Assembly (NCBI RefSeq): GCF_024653915.1
Contig: NZ_JANLGY010000013.1
Coordinates: forward strand, 124,001 to 188,000
Length of the DNA: 64,000 nt
Source: Sulfuricaulis sp.
GTDB taxonomy: Bacteria > Pseudomonadota > Gammaproteobacteria > Acidiferrobacterales > Sulfurifustaceae
Reading direction: 5' to 3'
Below are positions 21,702 to 61,587 of the stretch, piece after piece (the first letter of the stretch is position 1; each line of letters begins with the position of its first letter). Position numbers and translations under genes: made by a program. The notes under the pieces are model-generated. The model made no database searches. It was not told the origin of the DNA and was given only the letters and a program-made list of their open reading frames with translations.

Positions 21702-23186
21702 TCAGTCCACGCGGCTGGTGATCAGCTGGTTATCCGGAAATTTATTGTCGCGCAGGTATTTATTCACCGATGTCAGAAAGGCTTCGGGTCCGGCGGCGTA
21801 GATATCGAAGCCGCTGAGATCGGGATGATCCTTCGTGAGCTGCTTGAGGGCCAAGTCCGATTTGGCCGCCCCCGCCGTCAATGATGTGTACTGGAAATTA
21901 TCCAGCGCGTCTGTCCAGGAACGGCAGAGATTGTTGAGGTAATGACCGCCGTCGTCGCTGAGCCAATACAGGTGCAGGCTCTCGGCCACGTCCCGCGCCA
22001 TGGCGTGTTCGATGAGGCTTTTGATCGGCGCGAATCCCGTTCCATGGGCCAGAAAAATCAGGGAACGTGGCGATTCCTCGCCCAACTTGAATTCCCCTTT
22101 GGGTCCGACGAGCGAAACGATATCCCCTGGTTTCAGTTTTTTGAAGACATAATCGGCGAGGCGATTGCCGGGCAGACGCTGCACGTGAAACTGGAGATTG
22201 CGGTCGTCACACGGGCAACTGGCGACCGGGTAATCCGCCTCGGCGCCGTTGGCGGTTTCGAGCGTCACCGCCTGGCCGGCGAGGAACTGCAGCCGCTTCG
22301 TGCGTGGCGTCTGCAAGTGCAACAGCGCCATGTTATCGCCAAGCAACTCTATCTTCTTGACCCGCGTCGCGATTTGTTGTGCCGGAATATCCTGCGCGCC
22401 GCCGATCTCGGCGGCCTCGATCTCCAGATCGTTCACCGCCGTGTGGGAACACAGCAGCACATAGCCCTGATTCTTTTCGGCCTCGCTGAAAGCGTAATCG
22501 GAGTGGCGCATCGGGAGCGTCTTCCCGGAAACCACCCTGGCCTTGCACAAACCGCAGTTGCCGTTGCTGCAACCATAACGCAGCGAGATGCCGGCACGCA
22601 GGGCGGCATCCAGGATGGTGTCCGAACCTTCCACGAAAAACTCGCGTTGGCCCGGAACGAGGCGAACATGGGCGGTCATGAGGCGGAGAAAACTCTCCTT
22701 GACGACGTAGGATTGAAGATAGTCGTTGGGCGACTGCTTCTCCAGTTCATGCCGTAGCCACAGCTTGAGAGGCCCCATGATATTGCGGATATCCTGACCG
22801 CCGGACCTTTCATGCTCACTGAATTTGTCATACAGCCAGTCGGTGATGGTTTTGTAGCGCCCCACCTGCATCCGTGTTTTTGCCAGTTCCTTGCTCAGCC
22901 CGGAGAGACGTTCGGCCAGCACCTCGGGTCCGGGCAGCAGTACTTCACGCACACGGTGGGCAAAGGCATCGTCCTTGATGTGGGTGAAGCGCTCCAGTTC
23001 ACCGCTGTTGTCCAGTTGTGTATCCGGATAGGCGCGCAGCAAATCCTCGGGCTTGACCATGCCCTCGAAGGTTTCCAGCTCGCCTTTCTTGATTTTTTTC
23101 TGGAGCGCGCCACGCGTGACGCCCACAAGACGCGCGGCGCGCGTCAAGCTAAGTAACTGTGCGCCGTTATTTGACTGGTCTGGCAT
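21702..23186 (-). CDS. Fusion: helix-turn-helix + [2Fe-2S] ferredoxin + ferredoxin reductase
   Basis: A 494-residue protein with three parts. Residues about 11-55 (LLSLTRAARLVGVTRGALQK, then IKKGELETFEG) read as a DNA-binding helix-turn-helix like those of MerR/excisionase or Fis-type proteins. Residues 60-165 are helical. Residues 172-260 are a plant-type [2Fe-2S] ferredoxin with cluster ligands Cys206, Cys211, Cys214 and Cys246. Residues 270-494 are a ferredoxin-NAD(P)+ reductase-like module with the nucleotide motif HGTGFAPIKSLIEHA. The FAD-binding RxYS motif is altered (ADYPVAS, no Arg). A redox-sensing regulator is one reading; an oxidoreductase with a protein-binding head is another. 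Confidence 0.8.
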   Translation of the reverse strand: MPDQSNNGAQLLSLTRAARLVGVTRGALQKKIKKGELETFEGMVKPEDLLRAYPDTQLDNSGELERFTHIKDDAFAHRVREVLLPGPEVLAERLSGLSKELAKTRMQVGRYKTITDWLYDKFSEHERSGGQDIRNIMGPLKLWLRHELEKQSPNDYLQSYVVKESFLRLMTAHVRLVPGQREFFVEGSDTILDAALRAGISLRYGCSNGNCGLCKARVVSGKTLPMRHSDYAFSEAEKNQGYVLLCSHTAVNDLEIEAAEIGGAQDIPAQQIATRVKKIELLGDNMALLHLQTPRTKRLQFLAGQAVTLETANGAEADYPVASCPCDDRNLQFHVQRLPGNRLADYVFKKLKPGDIVSLVGPKGEFKLGEESPRSLIFLAHGTGFAPIKSLIEHAMARDVAESLHLYWLSDDGGHYLNNLCRSWTDALDNFQYTSLTAGAAKSDLALKQLTKDHPDLSGFDIYAAGPEAFLTSVNKYLRDNKFPDNQLITSRVD

Positions 23187-23237
23187 GGATCAATCCCACC
23201 AACGTGTCTGGGCCGTGTCGGTTGAATTAAATCACCC

Positions 23238-23247
23238 GACTATAGTC
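23238..23247. promoter_or_regulatory. Short palindrome upstream of the fusion gene
   Basis: GACTATAGTC is a perfect 10-bp palindrome 52-61 nt upstream of the fusion-protein start. It could be an operator for that protein or part of a promoter. Nothing else supports it. Confidence 0.25.
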
Positions 23248-23365
23248 AGCATGACAACCTTACAGAGAGGCATGAGGCGCGGTTTACTGCAGAGATAATT
23301 GGGGAAATATAAAACGTCATGGCAAATGCCGTATGCCAAGTATCGGGGATATAAAAAACCGGCTT

Positions 23366-23397
23366 GCGGGGCAAGCCATTGTCTGGCTTTGCCCCGC
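23366..23397. terminator. GC-rich hairpin after the RNA-binding protein gene
   Basis: GCGGGGCAAGCCA pairs with TGGCTTTGCCCCGC (13 pairs, one bulge) around a 5-nt loop. An A-run at 23353-23358 would be a T-run on the reverse strand a few bases past the stem, so it probably ends the reverse gene at 23460. Confidence 0.55.
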
Positions 23398-56292: not shown

Positions 56293-56525
56293 TTTTCTGT
56301 TCTTCTCGCGTACCCATCATTTATGTGGGCTCTCAATTAGCGATCCTCAGTAAGAAATTAAATCCACGTTCGCATGCGGCGATTCATTTGTTACACGAAA
56401 TCAAGCTTCCCTCAATTCTTATTGCCACATTCAATATTATTAATTGCGGATAGCTCCCGGGCTTAGTATCTTAACTGGCGCAAAATATTTTGTGTCCAAC
56501 CTTCTTGCTGGATTGCTCATCTCTT

Positions 56526-59405
56526 ATGACCCAAGCTTCCACTGGCCGCAGCGAGACCAAGAACACGACCTGCTACATGTGCGCCTGTCGTTGCGGAATC
56601 CGCGTGACGCTCAAGGATGGTGAGATGCGTTACATCGATGGCAATCCCGAGCACCCGATCAACAAGGGTGTGATTTGTGCCAAGGGTGCCTCGGGCATCA
56701 TGAAGCAGCATTCGCCTGCGCGCCTGACCAAGCCGCTCCGGCGCAAACCAGGCAGCGAGCGCGGCGCTAACGAGTTTGAAGCGATTTCCTGGGATGAGGC
56801 ATTTGCCATTCTGGAAGAGCGCCTGGCGAAAATCCGCGCTACCGATCCGAAGAAGTTCGCGTTATTCACCGGCCGCGACCAGATGCAGGCGCTGACCGGC
56901 CTGTTCGCCAAGCAGTTCGGCACGCCCAACTACGCGGCGCACGGCGGTTTCTGCTCGGTCAACATGGCCGCGGGCATGATCTACACCATCGGTGGCTCGT
57001 TCTGGGAGTTCGGCGGACCGGATCTCGACCGCGCCAAGCTGTTCGTGATGATCGGCACCGCCGAAGATCATCACTCCAACCCGCTCAAGATCGCCATTTC
57101 CAAATTCAAACGCAACGGCGGCAAGTTCATCTCGGTCAATCCGGTGCGCACCGGTTACTCGGCGATCGCCGACGAGTGGGTTCCAATCAAACCCGGCACC
57201 GACGGCGCACTGTTTCTGGCGCTCATCCACCAGCTCATCAAGCAGGGTCTGTACGATCGCGATTTCCTGGTGCAATACACCAATTCCGCGCAGCTGGTGA
57301 ACATGGACAACGATTCGAGCGAGAACGGCATGTTCGTGCGCGCCGAGGTGCCGGAGGAGGAGGGCTGTTTCGATCCGCAGAACAAACTGTGGTGGGATCG
57401 CCTGACGAACAAGGCTGTGCTCACGCATAGTGCCGGAGCCGATCCCAATCTGCTCGGCGAGTTCGCGCTGCCGGATGGCACCAAGGTTAAACCGTCATTC
57501 CAGTTGCTGGTGGATCGCGTCAAGGACCACACGCCCGAGTGGGCCAGCAAGATTACCGGCATCCCGGTGGAAACCATCAAGCGTCTGGCGAACGAAATGG
57601 GCGTCACGGCGCGCGACCAGAAAATCGAGCTGCCCATCGCCTGGACCGATATCTGGGGCAAGGACCATGAGACCGTGACTGGCAACCCGGTGGCGTTTCA
57701 CGCCATGCGCGGCCTGGCCGCGCACTCGAACGGTTTTCACACCATCCGTGCGCTCTCCATACTAATGAGTATTCTTGGCACCATTGACCGGCCGGGCGGC
57801 TTTCGCCACAAGGCGCCGTTCCCGCGCCCGATTCCGCCTTGCGCCAAGACGCCGAAAGGCCCGGAAGGCGTGCGCGCGGGCAAGCCGCTGGACGGCATGG
57901 CGCTCGGCTGGCCGGCCGACCCGGATGATTTATTTGTCGACCAGGACGGCACGCCGGTTCGCATCGACAAGGCCTTTTCCTGGGAGTATCCACTGTCGGT
58001 GCATGGGCTGATGCACAACGTCATCACCAATGCCTGGCGCGGCGATCCCTATAAGCTCGACACACTGATGATCTTCATGGCCAACATGGCCTGGAACTCG
58101 ACCATGAACACGGTCGAGGTACGCAAGATGCTGAACGACAAGGATGAGAAGGGTGAATTCAAAATCCCGTTCATTGTCGTGTGCGATGCGTTCCAATCGG
58201 AGATGGTGGCGTACGCCGATCTGGTGTTGCCGGATACCACTTATCTGGAACGCCATGATGTCATGGGCATGCTCGACCGGCCGGTGTCCGAGTTCGACGG
58301 TCCGATGGATTCCGTGCGCATCCCGGTGGTGCCACCCAAGGGCGAGTGCAAACCGTTCCAGGAAGTGCTGATCGAGCTCGCGACACGCCTCAAATTCCCG
58401 GCCTTTGTCGATACGCGTGGGCAACGTAAATTCAAGAATTATCCGGATTTCATCATCAACTACGAGATCGAGCCGGGCTCGGGTATTGGTTTTCTCGCCG
58501 GCTGGCGCGGCAAGGGCGGCGAGAAATTCATGAAAGGCGAGCCTAACCCGAACCAGTGGGAGATGTACGAGAAGAACAACTGCGTGTTCCGCTACGAGTT
58601 GCCCAAGTCCTACCAGTACATGCGCAACTGGAACAAGGGCTATCTCGAATGGGCGCAGCGCCACCGCCTGACGCGCTATGCCGAGCCGATCCTGATTCAT
58701 GTCTATTCCGATATTTTGCAGCAATTCCGCCTCGCGGCGCAGGGCAAGACCCAGGGCAAGCAACCACCCCAGCATTTGCGCGAGCGTATCGAGACCTATT
58801 TCGACCCACTGCCGTTTTACTATGAACCGCTCGAAACACAACTGACCGACAAGAAGAAGTATCCGCTCAATGCGGTAACACAACGGCCGATGGCGATGTA
58901 CCACTCGTGGGATTCGCAGAACGCCTGGCTGCGCCAGATTCACACGCACAACTATTTATTCGTGAATCCAAAAACCGCCAAGACCGAAGGCATCGCGGAT
59001 GGCGATTGGGTCTGGATCGAGTCGCCGTGGGGCAAGGTGCGCGGCATGTGTCGTTACAGCGAGGCTACCGAGCCCGGCACAGTCTGGACCTGGAACGCCA
59101 TCGGCAAACAACCGGGCGCATGGAATCTTGAACCGCGCGCGAATGAAGCGCGCAAGGGTTTTATACTCAATCATCTGATCACCGATGAGCTCCCGCCGCA
59201 GCCGGAGGGAAATCATCTTTCCAACTCCGATCCGGTGACCGGGCAGGCGGGGTGGTACGACGTGCGTGTGCGGATTTACAAGGCCGATCCGGCGGAAGAA
59301 AAAGTAACCATGCCGCAGTTCGAAATACTGTTACCGGTGCCCGGCGAACCGACTCGCCTTAAAAACTGGTTGGCCTATGTGGCCGGCAAGCTCACGGGAA
59401 CCTGA
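56526..59405 (+). CDS. soeA: Sulfite dehydrogenase SoeA, molybdopterin subunit
   Basis: A 959-residue DMSO-reductase-family molybdoenzyme. Residues 16-60 hold the [4Fe-4S] ligands (CYMCACRCG, then CAKG). There is no Tat signal, so it is cytoplasmic. That feature, the size and the partner genes match SoeA, the catalytic subunit oxidising sulfite to sulfate. Further landmarks: FALFTGRDQMQALTGLFAKQ, WEFGGPDLDRAKLFVMIGTA, LPDTTYLERHDVMGMLDRPV and a C-terminal molybdopterin-binding part. The alternative is another cytoplasm-facing DMSO-reductase-type enzyme. The ATG at 56526 is preferred over an ATG 36 nt upstream because relatives begin near it. soeB follows immediately. Confidence 0.88.
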   Translation: MTQASTGRSETKNTTCYMCACRCGIRVTLKDGEMRYIDGNPEHPINKGVICAKGASGIMKQHSPARLTKPLRRKPGSERGANEFEAISWDEAFAILEERLAKIRATDPKKFALFTGRDQMQALTGLFAKQFGTPNYAAHGGFCSVNMAAGMIYTIGGSFWEFGGPDLDRAKLFVMIGTAEDHHSNPLKIAISKFKRNGGKFISVNPVRTGYSAIADEWVPIKPGTDGALFLALIHQLIKQGLYDRDFLVQYTNSAQLVNMDNDSSENGMFVRAEVPEEEGCFDPQNKLWWDRLTNKAVLTHSAGADPNLLGEFALPDGTKVKPSFQLLVDRVKDHTPEWASKITGIPVETIKRLANEMGVTARDQKIELPIAWTDIWGKDHETVTGNPVAFHAMRGLAAHSNGFHTIRALSILMSILGTIDRPGGFRHKAPFPRPIPPCAKTPKGPEGVRAGKPLDGMALGWPADPDDLFVDQDGTPVRIDKAFSWEYPLSVHGLMHNVITNAWRGDPYKLDTLMIFMANMAWNSTMNTVEVRKMLNDKDEKGEFKIPFIVVCDAFQSEMVAYADLVLPDTTYLERHDVMGMLDRPVSEFDGPMDSVRIPVVPPKGECKPFQEVLIELATRLKFPAFVDTRGQRKFKNYPDFIINYEIEPGSGIGFLAGWRGKGGEKFMKGEPNPNQWEMYEKNNCVFRYELPKSYQYMRNWNKGYLEWAQRHRLTRYAEPILIHVYSDILQQFRLAAQGKTQGKQPPQHLRERIETYFDPLPFYYEPLETQLTDKKKYPLNAVTQRPMAMYHSWDSQNAWLRQIHTHNYLFVNPKTAKTEGIADGDWVWIESPWGKVRGMCRYSEATEPGTVWTWNAIGKQPGAWNLEPRANEARKGFILNHLITDELPPQPEGNHLSNSDPVTGQAGWYDVRVRIYKADPAEEKVTMPQFEILLPVPGEPTRLKNWLAYVAGKLTGT

Positions 59406-59406
59406 C

Positions 59407-60138
59407 GTGACCCAGCTCGCCTTGGTCATCGATCTCAATGTTTGTGTCGGCTGCCACGCCTGCGTCACGAGTTGCAAGGAATGGAACACCTCGGGTGTGG
59501 CCGGCTACCTGTCCGACGACCGTCCGTACGGTGAGGATCCGACCGGTACTTTCTTCAATCGGGTGCAGACCTTCGAGGTGGGTGAGTTCCCGAATACCGA
59601 AACCGTGCATTTTCCGAAGTCGTGCCTGCACTGCGAGGACCCACCGTGCGTGCCGGTGTGTCCCACCGGCGCCAGCTACAAACGCCCCGAGGACGGTATC
59701 GTGCTGGTCGATTACGACAAGTGCATCGGTTGCAAGTACTGCGCGTGGGCCTGCCCCTACGGCGTGCGCGAGATCGACGAACACCAGAAGGTCATGAAAA
59801 AGTGCACTCTGTGTGTGGATCGCATCTACGATACGACGCTGCCCGAGACGGAACGCAAACCGGCCTGCGTGATGGCGTGCCCGACCAGCGCGCGCCTGTT
59901 CGGCGACGTGCACGATCCGGACTCGGCGGTATCGATCGCGATCGGCGAGAGCGGTGGTTACGCACTGATGCCGGAGTGGGGTACCAAGCCGGCCAATCAT
60001 TATCTGCCGCGGCGTAAGACGCGTATCAAGATCCACGACGACGAGCTCATGCGCGCTGATAATCCACTCAAGAAAGAGGGGGCGCAGCCCAAGCCGGATG
60101 TCAAAGAACCGTCGCTGGACGACGTCACTTCTTGGTAA
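59407..60138 (+). CDS. soeB: Sulfite dehydrogenase SoeB, iron-sulfur subunit
   Basis: A 243-residue electron-transfer subunit with four [4Fe-4S] sites: CVGCHACVTSCKEWN, CLHCEDPPCVPVCPTGA, CIGCKYCAWACPYGVRE and CTLCVDRIYD with CVMACPT. There is no signal peptide. It passes electrons from SoeA to the membrane anchor. The GTG lies one nt after the soeA stop. In the usual order soeC follows directly, but here a broken gene and two repeat arms separate them. Confidence 0.92.
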   Translation: MTQLALVIDLNVCVGCHACVTSCKEWNTSGVAGYLSDDRPYGEDPTGTFFNRVQTFEVGEFPNTETVHFPKSCLHCEDPPCVPVCPTGASYKRPEDGIVLVDYDKCIGCKYCAWACPYGVREIDEHQKVMKKCTLCVDRIYDTTLPETERKPACVMACPTSARLFGDVHDPDSAVSIAIGESGGYALMPEWGTKPANHYLPRRKTRIKIHDDELMRADNPLKKEGAQPKPDVKEPSLDDVTSW

Positions 60139-60139
60139 G

Positions 60140-60605
60140 GCAGTGACAAGTTAAAGTGCTAAGTGATAAGTTCAGAAGCGCGCTGTTTTGAAACACTTGA
60201 GTGAGGCGAGATGAAAGAGAGTCCGTTAAGAAGCAAGAGTTATGAATTTTCACTCAAGGTTGTCCGGATTGTCAGGGGGCATGCGGGAGAGAAAACCCGA
60301 GCACGAACTGACATCCCAGCTTTTACGTTCAGCAACGAGTGTGGGCGCCAACATCGAGGAAGCGGGTGCTGGTCAGAGCCGCAGGGATTTTATCTCCAAG
60401 CTGTCGATTGCACGGAAGGAAGCGAATGAATCAAGGTACTGGCTGCGGTTGATGCGCGACGCGATGTTATTGATAACGACGTGGCATCGAATTTGATCGA
60501 GGACTGCGAAGAGTTGATCCGGATGTTGACAGCGAGCATAAAAACCGCCCAACGGAGTACGAATAGGACATAGCACTCATCACTTATCACTTGCAACTGG
60601 TTCAC
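60140..60605. repeat. Inverted repeat arms around the broken four-helix-bundle gene
   Basis: The left arm (about 60141-60173) holds GACAAGTTAAAGTGCTAAGT then GATAAGTTC. The right arm (about 60574-60604) holds CACTCATCACTTATCACTTG then CAACTGG. Both contain AAGTGATAAGT, in opposite orientation. The design resembles rRNA intervening sequences, in which a four-helix-bundle gene lies in the loop of a long stem. Confidence 0.6.
60211..60573 (+). pseudogene. Frameshifted four-helix-bundle protein (rRNA intervening-sequence type)
   Basis: Three segments in two frames rebuild a four-helix-bundle protein of the intervening-sequence type (TIGR02436-like). Frame 1 gives MKESPLRSKSYEFSLKVVRI. Frame 2 gives LRSATSVGANIEEAGAGQSR then RDFISKLSIARKEANESRYW. 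Frame 1 again gives SNLIEDCEELIRMLTASIK. The shifts lie near a GGGGG run at about 60275 and near 60470. Such proteins have no agreed function. The gene interrupts soeBC. Confidence 0.8.
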
Positions 60606-60609
60606 CAAT

Positions 60610-61587
60610 ATGAATCCAGCATTCTCGGTTATTTTTCTGACGACACTGATTGGAGCCGGTCAGGGCCTGTTTCTGGCGCTATACACCGCACAGGTCTATT
60701 CGGCGGTTGAGTTGCTTCCGGAACAATCAAACAGTTTTTACGTGCTGGGTAGCGCCATATCGTTTGCATTACTAATCGCCGGGCTGGTGGCATCATTCTT
60801 CCATCTCGGTCATCCGGAGCGCGCGTGGCGCTCGGCCGCGCGCTGGCGTACCTCCTGGTTGTCACGCGAGGTGATTGTGTTGCCGGCGCTGATGGGTGCC
60901 GTGGCGGCCTATGGCCTGATTCATTATTACGAATGGGACCTGAGTCTTATCGGTATCGATAGCTCGGCCCAAGGCGGCCTTTCGCTCGTCGTCGGCGCCG
61001 GGGGTACGGCGCTGGCTTTTCTGTTGTTTCTCTGTACCGGTATGATTTACGCGTGCATCAAGTTTCTGCAGGAGTGGGCGACGTGGCTGACGGTGGTGAA
61101 TTACACGCTGTTCGGACTGGCCTCCGGTTTCCTGCTGGCGACCGCGTACGCGGCGTACCAGGCGCCGGCGCTGATGTACTTCTACGGGGGCTGGACCATC
61201 GTTGCCACACTGGCTGTTTTGATGACGCGCATTGTTTCGCTGGTCCGTAATCGTCGCATTAAGCACAAGTCGACGATCCAGACCGCTATCGGCGTGCGTC
61301 ATGCCCGTATCGTCCAGAAGTCACAGGGATTCATGGGTGGGTCATTTAATACGCGTGATTTTTTCCATAACGCCACGCCATGGGTGTTCCGTTCGATTAA
61401 ATGGATTTTTCTGGTGCTGGTGTTCCCGGTGCCAATGGGAATGCTTTTCGCCGGCATGATTCACAGCAGCGCTACGCTGATTACCGCCGCCTTTGTTGTT
61501 CAGTACCTCGGTTTGCTTGCGGAGCGCTGGTTTTTCTTTGCCCAGGCCAATCACCCGCAGAATCTCTATTACCAGACTATCTCCTGA
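60610..61587 (+). CDS. soeC: Sulfite dehydrogenase SoeC, membrane anchor
   Basis: A 325-residue DmsC/NrfD-type membrane anchor with about eight hydrophobic segments. It starts MNPAFSVIFLTTLIGAGQGL and carries ASFFHLGHPERAWRSAARWR, SWLSREVIVLPALMG, and FSVFCTGMIYAC-like LFLCTGMIYACIKFLQEW, typical of DmsC. It delivers electrons to the quinone pool. Although separated from soeB by the broken gene, it completes the soeABC set. Confidence 0.9.
   Translation: MNPAFSVIFLTTLIGAGQGLFLALYTAQVYSAVELLPEQSNSFYVLGSAISFALLIAGLVASFFHLGHPERAWRSAARWRTSWLSREVIVLPALMGAVAAYGLIHYYEWDLSLIGIDSSAQGGLSLVVGAGGTALAFLLFLCTGMIYACIKFLQEWATWLTVVNYTLFGLASGFLLATAYAAYQAPALMYFYGGWTIVATLAVLMTRIVSLVRNRRIKHKSTIQTAIGVRHARIVQKSQGFMGGSFNTRDFFHNATPWVFRSIKWIFLVLVFPVPMGMLFAGMIHSSATLITAAFVVQYLGLLAERWFFFAQANHPQNLYYQTIS

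Follow-up and report, generated by a model that had tools for sequence, protein, structure and literature searches.

One gene of Sulfuricaulis encodes a protein of 494 amino acids in which a DNA-binding-type head is joined to long helices, a [2Fe-2S] ferredoxin domain and an FNR-like module, and we are highly confident that the family to which it belongs is associated with Dsr sulfur oxidation. The architecture, its conservation, a single fusion clade, a split two-gene form and the dsr association are directly established. Two of these results, the separability of the head as a module and the family's tie to Dsr sulfur oxidation, go beyond the reading of an earlier note on this DNA. As to function, we give about an even chance to the proposal that the protein regulates Dsr sulfur oxidation as a DNA-binding protein that responds to redox state or sulfur, or is an enzyme of that pathway with a regulatory head.

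The gene and its surroundings

The features discussed below are located as follows in the window, which is the whole stretch of 64,000 nucleotides that was analysed.

21702..23186, minus strand: gene for the fusion protein (494 aa), with winged helix-turn-helix (HTH), long helices, [2Fe-2S] ferredoxin domain and FNR-like module
23016..23159, minus strand: predicted winged HTH, residues 10-57 (fold prediction, conservation)
22740..22928, minus strand: long helices, probable coiled coil, residues 87-149 (AlphaFold2)
22413..22667, minus strand: plant-type [2Fe-2S] domain, residues 174-258, with ligands C206, C211, C214 and C246 invariant
22086..22379, minus strand: FAD-binding-type barrel without RxYS, residues 270-367 (Pfam, alignment)
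22209..22223, minus strand: Cys-Pro-Cys signature ASCPC at the flavin motif, residues 322-326
21717..22061, minus strand: NAD(P)-binding-type domain, residues 376-490, with HGTGFAP kept and the usual C-terminal aromatic motif absent
23217..23240, no strand: imperfect 24-bp palindrome GTCGGGTGATTTAATTCAACCGAC upstream of the fusion gene, a candidate element
23360..23397, minus strand: terminator-like hairpin with a T run, behind the upstream RNA-binding-protein gene and between that gene and the fusion gene

The open reading frame of the earlier note is exact at 21702..23186 and lies on the minus strand, which was not stated there. That a DNA-binding-type head, a [2Fe-2S] domain and a reductase-like part form one chain, as the same note had claimed, is borne out by Pfam domains over cut-off and by the AlphaFold2 prediction of the head. 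The fusion gene begins 273 bases past the end of the RNA-binding-protein gene, and a convergent gene for a presumed S9-type peptidase ends 5 bases from it. Among the loci compared, these neighbors and a presumed DEAD helicase gene are shared only by genus members, and they gave no clue to function. Farther away on the plus strand (56490-61587), the window carries genes for a molybdopterin oxidoreductase of 971 aa, a 4Fe-4S subunit of 253 aa and a membrane-type subunit of 325 aa. We presume that this trio resembles the sulfite:quinone oxidoreductase SoeABC; in NCBIfam the first two genes have relatives below cut-off and the third has none.

The palindrome that had been noticed upstream of the gene is present, with 10 of its 12 pairs matched, 54 to 31 bases before the ATG. 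Its standing as an element is weak, however, because 5 of 40 shuffles of the upstream region match its score and because, of the eight other genus members, three have it at the corresponding place and then only as a degraded copy; five of the nine genus members lack it. It was rejected as the operator of a regulon: when one mismatch is tolerated it matches at 7 genomic places vs. 12 for the reversed control, and the matches are more than 24 kb from both dsrA copies or on other contigs (the nearest, C11, at 24.6 kb).

The N-terminal head

The earlier note had made its reading depend on a structure prediction of the N-terminus, which now places a predicted winged HTH of the excisionase/MerR kind at residues 12-52. 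AlphaFold2, which was given alignments of 30 and 29 rows, predicts a short strand, helices at residues 14-21 and 25-33, a hairpin and a helix at 46-52, and the pLDDT of this block is 74-83. Further helices start at residue 62 and run from 87 to 149; they are a probable coiled coil, and they may serve in dimerization. The mean pLDDT is 82.1 for the whole protein and 72.6 for the N-terminal part, which has a pTM of 0.36, and the arrangement of the helices is therefore unreliable.

The best matches of the head with VIA-align are the Pukovnik Xis protein (4j2n; Z 7.0, 1.5 A over 47 residues) and BldC (Z 7.0, 2.2 A over 50), both of which are DNA-binding kinds. They are followed by RdfS (Z 6.3), CbpM (3ucs; Z 5.9), HiNmlR (Z 5.8) and SoxR (2zhg; Z 5.5, 2.6 A over 48), so that the MerR-type proteins HiNmlR and SoxR stand at Z 5-6 beside Xis and BldC at Z 7. 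These values are modest: none of the head's fold matches reaches Z 8 in VIA-align or a Foldseek E below 0.001. The FNR part and the HTH between them take up the fold-match lists.

Profile matches to the head are weak. On residues 15-34 of the whole window protein the Pfam HTH models stay below cut-off (HTH_8, E 0.024), and with residues 1-170 alone the HTH_8-type match improves to E 0.003, still below cut-off. With E values up to 1 allowed, HTH_17 matches the N-terminal part in 23 of 29 members, the best at 6.9e-5, and the window protein, with 13.4 bits, does not reach its curated cut-off of 27. No MerR model of Pfam was listed for the window protein.

Conservation in the head is strong, with R16, A17, L20, G22, R25, Q29, G35, G42, L49 and P54 invariant in all 30 aligned fused sequences. 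Residues 14-35 of the window protein have a net charge of +7, and over roughly comparable stretches the mean charge is +5.4 in fused heads (30 rows) vs. +2.3 in stand-alone heads (20 rows), and this lower charge counts against the regulator reading. We consider the winged-HTH reading of the head to be good. DNA binding is likely, as judged from the predicted fold and from the basic, conserved HTH, and we word it with caution because CbpM, a MerR-like head that binds protein, sits among the fold matches.

The ferredoxin and FNR-like modules

Three Pfam domains are over cut-off in the remainder of the protein: Fer2 at residues 181-248, FAD_binding_6 at 275-367 and NAD_binding_1 at 378-475. The best NCBIfam match is BenC, with 141 bits vs. 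a cut-off of 430. Among PDB entries, the best by sequence are GcoB (5ogx) and benzoate dioxygenase reductase (1krh), and the same two lead by fold. The [2Fe-2S] reductases of oxygenases of the BenC/AntC type have the same order of Fer2, FAD-barrel and NAD-domain, and the genome from which the window comes holds two paralogous genes of this ordinary type.

The earlier note had pointed out that the flavin motif RxYS is altered, and in the window protein the stretch indeed reads A317 D Y P V A S C P C326. This is a trait of the family rather than a private change, because counts over 110 rows reveal the same loss with a conserved dithiol in place of the motif. The subfamily counted was defined as rows with at least 310 bits to profile A4, a line set post hoc at a gap between 317 and 306.5 bits. 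The ordinary group of ten relatives leaves out L184 and L054, both of which carry ASCPC; L054 is incomplete and has a run of N.

The four cluster cysteines are kept in 110/110 subfamily rows and in 10/10 ordinary relatives. The flavin motif R.[YF][ST], in contrast, is found in 4/110 rows vs. 10/10, G[GS]TG[FIL] in 1/110 vs. 8/10, and the C-terminal aromatic motif, in the pattern used, in 0/110 vs. 10/10. An aromatic C-terminal residue over the flavin is a motif of ordinary reductases. Cys-Pro-Cys has the opposite pattern, with 109/110 subfamily rows and 0/10 ordinary relatives, and the 30 fused sequences show no variation at A322 S C P C326 or at the cluster cysteines. An earlier count on a narrower stretch gave R.[YF][ST] in 2/110 vs. 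10/13 and ASCPC in 102/110. The FNR-like module thus appears to be without the ordinary FAD signatures, and its flavin site is probably degenerate. In comparison with the BenC/AntC type and with the paralogs in the same genome, the subfamily has mostly lost RxYS, GGTG and the C-terminal aromatic residue, has gained CPC, and has the HTH and the long helices added.

Distribution and fusion history

The family search for the same architecture that the earlier note had proposed finds full-length relatives in 9/9 genus genomes searched (71-88% identity, the window's own aside), in further families of the order and as far away as the Betaproteobacteria; metagenome-assembled genomes named Sulfurimicrobium, Sulfuritalea, Rhodocyclaceae, Gallionellales and Rhodoferax are among the carriers. 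Of 369 genomes from the class (Gammaproteobacteria as GTDB defines it), 67 match a profile of residues 1-170, and after two weak matches (G303, G131) were dropped, 65 genomes with a head remained, 34 with the fusion and 31 with separate heads only. In a wider scan of the phylum with the head profile, 9 of 349 genomes match, five of them, including the window's, at E <1e-30, and one of those five is outside the class.

The stand-alone heads are 143-178 residues long (13 examined). Eight of them, in loci L085, L086, L087, L090, L093, L096, L097 and L098, have C-x-x-[KQ]-[QD]-K and then W near the C-terminus; the Cys of this motif is absent from the window protein.

The head also occurs as a neighbor of the reductase. 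A separate head gene is directly followed by a separate reductase gene in G339, G302, G156, G246, G164, G123, G278 and G373, that is, the two adjoin in 7 of the 31 genomes with a head and no fusion, plus G302, which has both forms. Among the 369 genomes, head and reductase are both present in 53, the head only in 12, the reductase only in 17 and neither in 287 (Fisher 3e-37, uncorrected for shared descent). Without the 34 fusion genomes the numbers are 20, 11, 17 and 287 (Fisher 1e-14, likewise uncorrected). Reductase matches below 310 bits were left out of these counts, so the fused reductase of G107 (270 bits) was dropped and G107 was counted as having a head. The dsrA and soxB counts given below leave out the same matches and the two weak heads.

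In a tree of 116 rows (a quick maximum-likelihood search with no bootstrap, rooted on six ordinary relatives), 64/64 fused rows fall in one clade of 73 with an SH-aLRT of 98. The other nine rows of this clade are head-less, the genomes of some of them also hold a fused copy (e.g., G011), and the two-gene forms fall outside the clade. The simplest history would be one fusion of two neighboring genes and then losses of the head.

Association with Dsr sulfur oxidation

Sulfur oxidation by Dsr, the reverse dissimilatory sulfite reductase, is a major route of the sulfur cycle. The dsrA profile TIGR02064 was run on the 369 class genomes, where 112 were over cut-off and 6 partial matches were counted as present, which gives 118. 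To control for general sulfur oxidation, the soxB profile TIGR04486 was run as well, with a best E up to 1e-100 counted as present (150 genomes; 148 are over the cut-off). dsrA is present in 74/82 genomes with a head or a reductase and in 44/287 with neither, a comparison uncorrected for shared descent. By family, 40 of the 42 families with a head or a reductase have dsrA; the Fisher test at this level assumes 187 family codes. The link is specific: within the 150 soxB-positive genomes dsrA is found in 66/72 carriers vs. 39/78 others (p 1e-8), and within the 118 dsrA-positive genomes soxB is found in 66/74 carriers vs. 39/44 others, i.e., with no link (p 1), shared descent being uncorrected in both. 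The eight carriers without dsrA include three genomes of 72-81% completeness (G217, G323, G225) and five of 90-100% (G107, G132, G308, G354, G393). Because 44 dsrA-positive genomes have neither gene, Dsr does not need the head or the reductase.

Gene order gives a second kind of evidence. In G127 the order is dsrA-B-E-F-H-C-M-K-L-J-O-P-N-R-S, and the reductase gene comes next, its start codon sharing TGATG with the stop codon of dsrS. In this genome the products of dsrA, B, C, K and O are over their NCBIfam cut-offs and DsrM is below its own; for dsrE, F, H, L, J, P, N, R and S the names are presumed, mainly from gene order. The dsrS gene is followed by the reductase at the end of the dsr cluster in G055, G082 and G222 as well, and all four of these genomes carry a head gene elsewhere. 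Looser linkages are a reductase about 0.8 kb from dsrS (G285) or about 1.2 kb behind a dsrAB pair (G011), a head-only gene about 4 kb behind dsrR (G148) and the two-gene form about 8 kb behind dsrS (G156). A DsrC-like gene adjoins the reductase in L166, L168 and L181 (PF04358 tested on L168). Overall, a head or a reductase shares a contig with dsrA in 18 of 74 genomes, and in 11 of these 18 the two are at most 25 kb apart.

For the fused form one dsr linkage was seen, in Rhodoferax (L050), where the gene is beside dsrE-B-A and a dsrC-like gene and begins within the stop codon of a TauD-type gene (overlap ATGA; L050:5087-5989). Elsewhere the nearest dsrA is 411 kb (G005), 243 kb (G011) or 586 kb (G285) away, and the two dsrA copies of the window genome are on contigs other than that of the fusion gene. 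The case for the window gene suffers most from this distance to dsr, which the fused gene shows both in the window genome and in these others.

Some other genes were seen around these loci. A TauD-type dioxygenase gene is divergent to dsrA in six loci (L199-L203, L207); the TauD-type calls rest on PF02668 for L050 and L199 and on similarity for the others. A DUF2201 VWA-type protein and a MoxR-like AAA ATPase are encoded between dsrR and dsrS in L202, L203 and L164 (Pfam on L203). A thioredoxin-like gene with HEAT repeats is 12-37 bases upstream of head-less reductases (L049:5320-5964, L051:249-881) and also near fused copies in L104, L112, L113 and L044 (Pfam tested on L104); this protein (c6) recurs beside some copies, but its order is not fixed, and it would be a tentative partner at most. 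The same applies to the Xre/MbcA/ParS-like c5 (below cut-off) and to the small proteins c8, c12, c15 and c17. The small protein c18 is encoded within about 15 bases upstream of the fused gene, or overlapping it, in L046, L104 and L112, and had no Pfam match in L104 or in the L046 part. Genes presumed from their sequence to encode GGDEF/EAL proteins lie near many copies, and one protein cluster of this kind occurs in 19 of the loci compared, but such genes are common and they were set aside.

Known systems and literature

Some known proteins combine similar parts. SoxR and IscR are [2Fe-2S] transcription factors with an HTH and a cluster in one chain, and the head of SoxR is of a similar winged type, as indicated above. 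In the protein described here, the cluster domain is instead a complete ferredoxin domain of the plant type, and a reductase-like module comes with it. The enzyme PutA likewise unites a flavoenzyme-type body with a head that binds DNA; it differs in the kind of head and in the enzyme family, and the flavin site of the fusion protein is probably degenerate.

DsrR and DsrS offer a parallel of position, as the reductase form is likewise at the end of the dsr cluster, after dsrR-dsrS. Unlike the reductase, DsrS matches no Pfam or NCBIfam family. In passages of the Allochromatium (A.) vinosum genome paper the functions of DsrL, DsrR and DsrS are called unresolved, and extra promoters are reported for dsrC and dsrS (PMC3368242). 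Excerpts of a 2024 paper state that DsrR takes part in regulation (PMC11406059), and according to part of another text, the dsr cluster of Sulfuricaulis limicola ends with dsrR, with dsrS apart (PMC5024460).

In Hyphomicrobium, passages of two papers describe sHdrR and an ArsR-type SoxR as sulfane-sulfur-responsive repressors (PMC10451225, PMC12423496). Sulfane-sulfur-responsive regulation of sulfur oxidation, as those passages describe it, resembles the role that we propose. Both proteins differ in being of the ArsR type and in acting on sHdr/Sox genes, and a ferredoxin or reductase part is not mentioned in the text examined. The authors of one of these papers suggest, in the same passages, that dedicated sulfur oxidizers with a truncated Sox may need little transcriptional regulation (PMC10451225), which speaks against a regulator here. 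Among the abstract openings and passages returned by a literature search there was no HTH-ferredoxin-reductase fusion and no DNA-binding dsr regulator, which is no proof of absence.

Proposed role and alternatives

If the protein is a regulator, the winged HTH would bind DNA in dimeric form, with the long helices holding the two subunits together, as the predicted fold and the basic, conserved HTH suggest. The plant-type ferredoxin domain would carry a [2Fe-2S] cluster, all of its ligands being kept. The FNR-like module would most likely sense or dock, reading the electron supply or sulfane sulfur, and not be an ordinary NADH reductase, because the ordinary FAD signatures are lost and a conserved Cys-Pro-Cys stands in their place. 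The state of the ferredoxin and FNR-like modules would then alter DNA binding by the head and so adjust sulfur-oxidation genes. A more specific version is that this family is the missing transcriptional sensor of Dsr, with the flavin site rebuilt as a Cys-Pro-Cys sulfane-sulfur switch that is read together with the [2Fe-2S] cluster and passed to the winged HTH, first by two neighboring proteins that were fused later. We regard this version as unlikely, and offer it as speculation.

The reductase could also be a real electron-transfer component of Dsr, for example towards DsrL or the DsrC persulfide, with a head that autoregulates or places it, so that the whole would be a trigger enzyme like PutA. 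This is possible, if somewhat doubtful in our judgment. In the four genomes mentioned above the dsr cluster ends with the reductase gene, which has no head beside it there (though a head is present elsewhere in all four), it has a DsrC-like neighbor in L166, L168 and L181, head-less rows inside the fusion clade, some of them from Betaproteobacteria, have kept it, and its FAD and NAD domains are still over the Pfam cut-offs. It is harder to reconcile with the loss of R.[YF][ST], G[GS]TG[FIL] and the C-terminal aromatic motif, which are retained in 4, 1 and 0 of 110 subfamily rows vs. 10, 8 and 10 of the 10 ordinary relatives.

Two further explanations concern the head and the association. The head might be a CbpM-like protein-protein module, with no transcriptional role, through which the redox protein docks on a partner; CbpM (3ucs) is among the fold matches, and head positions that are invariant over distant families would be equally expected from one conserved partner. 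However, the heads with the highest Z, Xis and BldC, are DNA-binding kinds and the HTH is basic in the fused forms, and we consider this explanation rather improbable. Alternatively, the protein might have a general function, and the dsr association would only mirror the shared descent of sulfur oxidizers: the 44 dsrA-positive genomes without the family, the mostly unlinked fused gene and counts that ignore the tree all fit it, but dsrA in 40/42 families, the specificity for dsrA over soxB and the operon position behind dsrS make it very unlikely.

Conclusions

If true, the regulator reading, to which we return, would make this family an example of an electron-transfer enzyme that became a sensor and was joined to a DNA-binding head. 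A simple marker, the CPC at the flavin-motif position, separates this subfamily from the ordinary ferredoxin reductases compared. In several lineages the family supplies an additional gene at the end of the dsr cluster, and it is a candidate for the little-studied control of the Dsr pathway.
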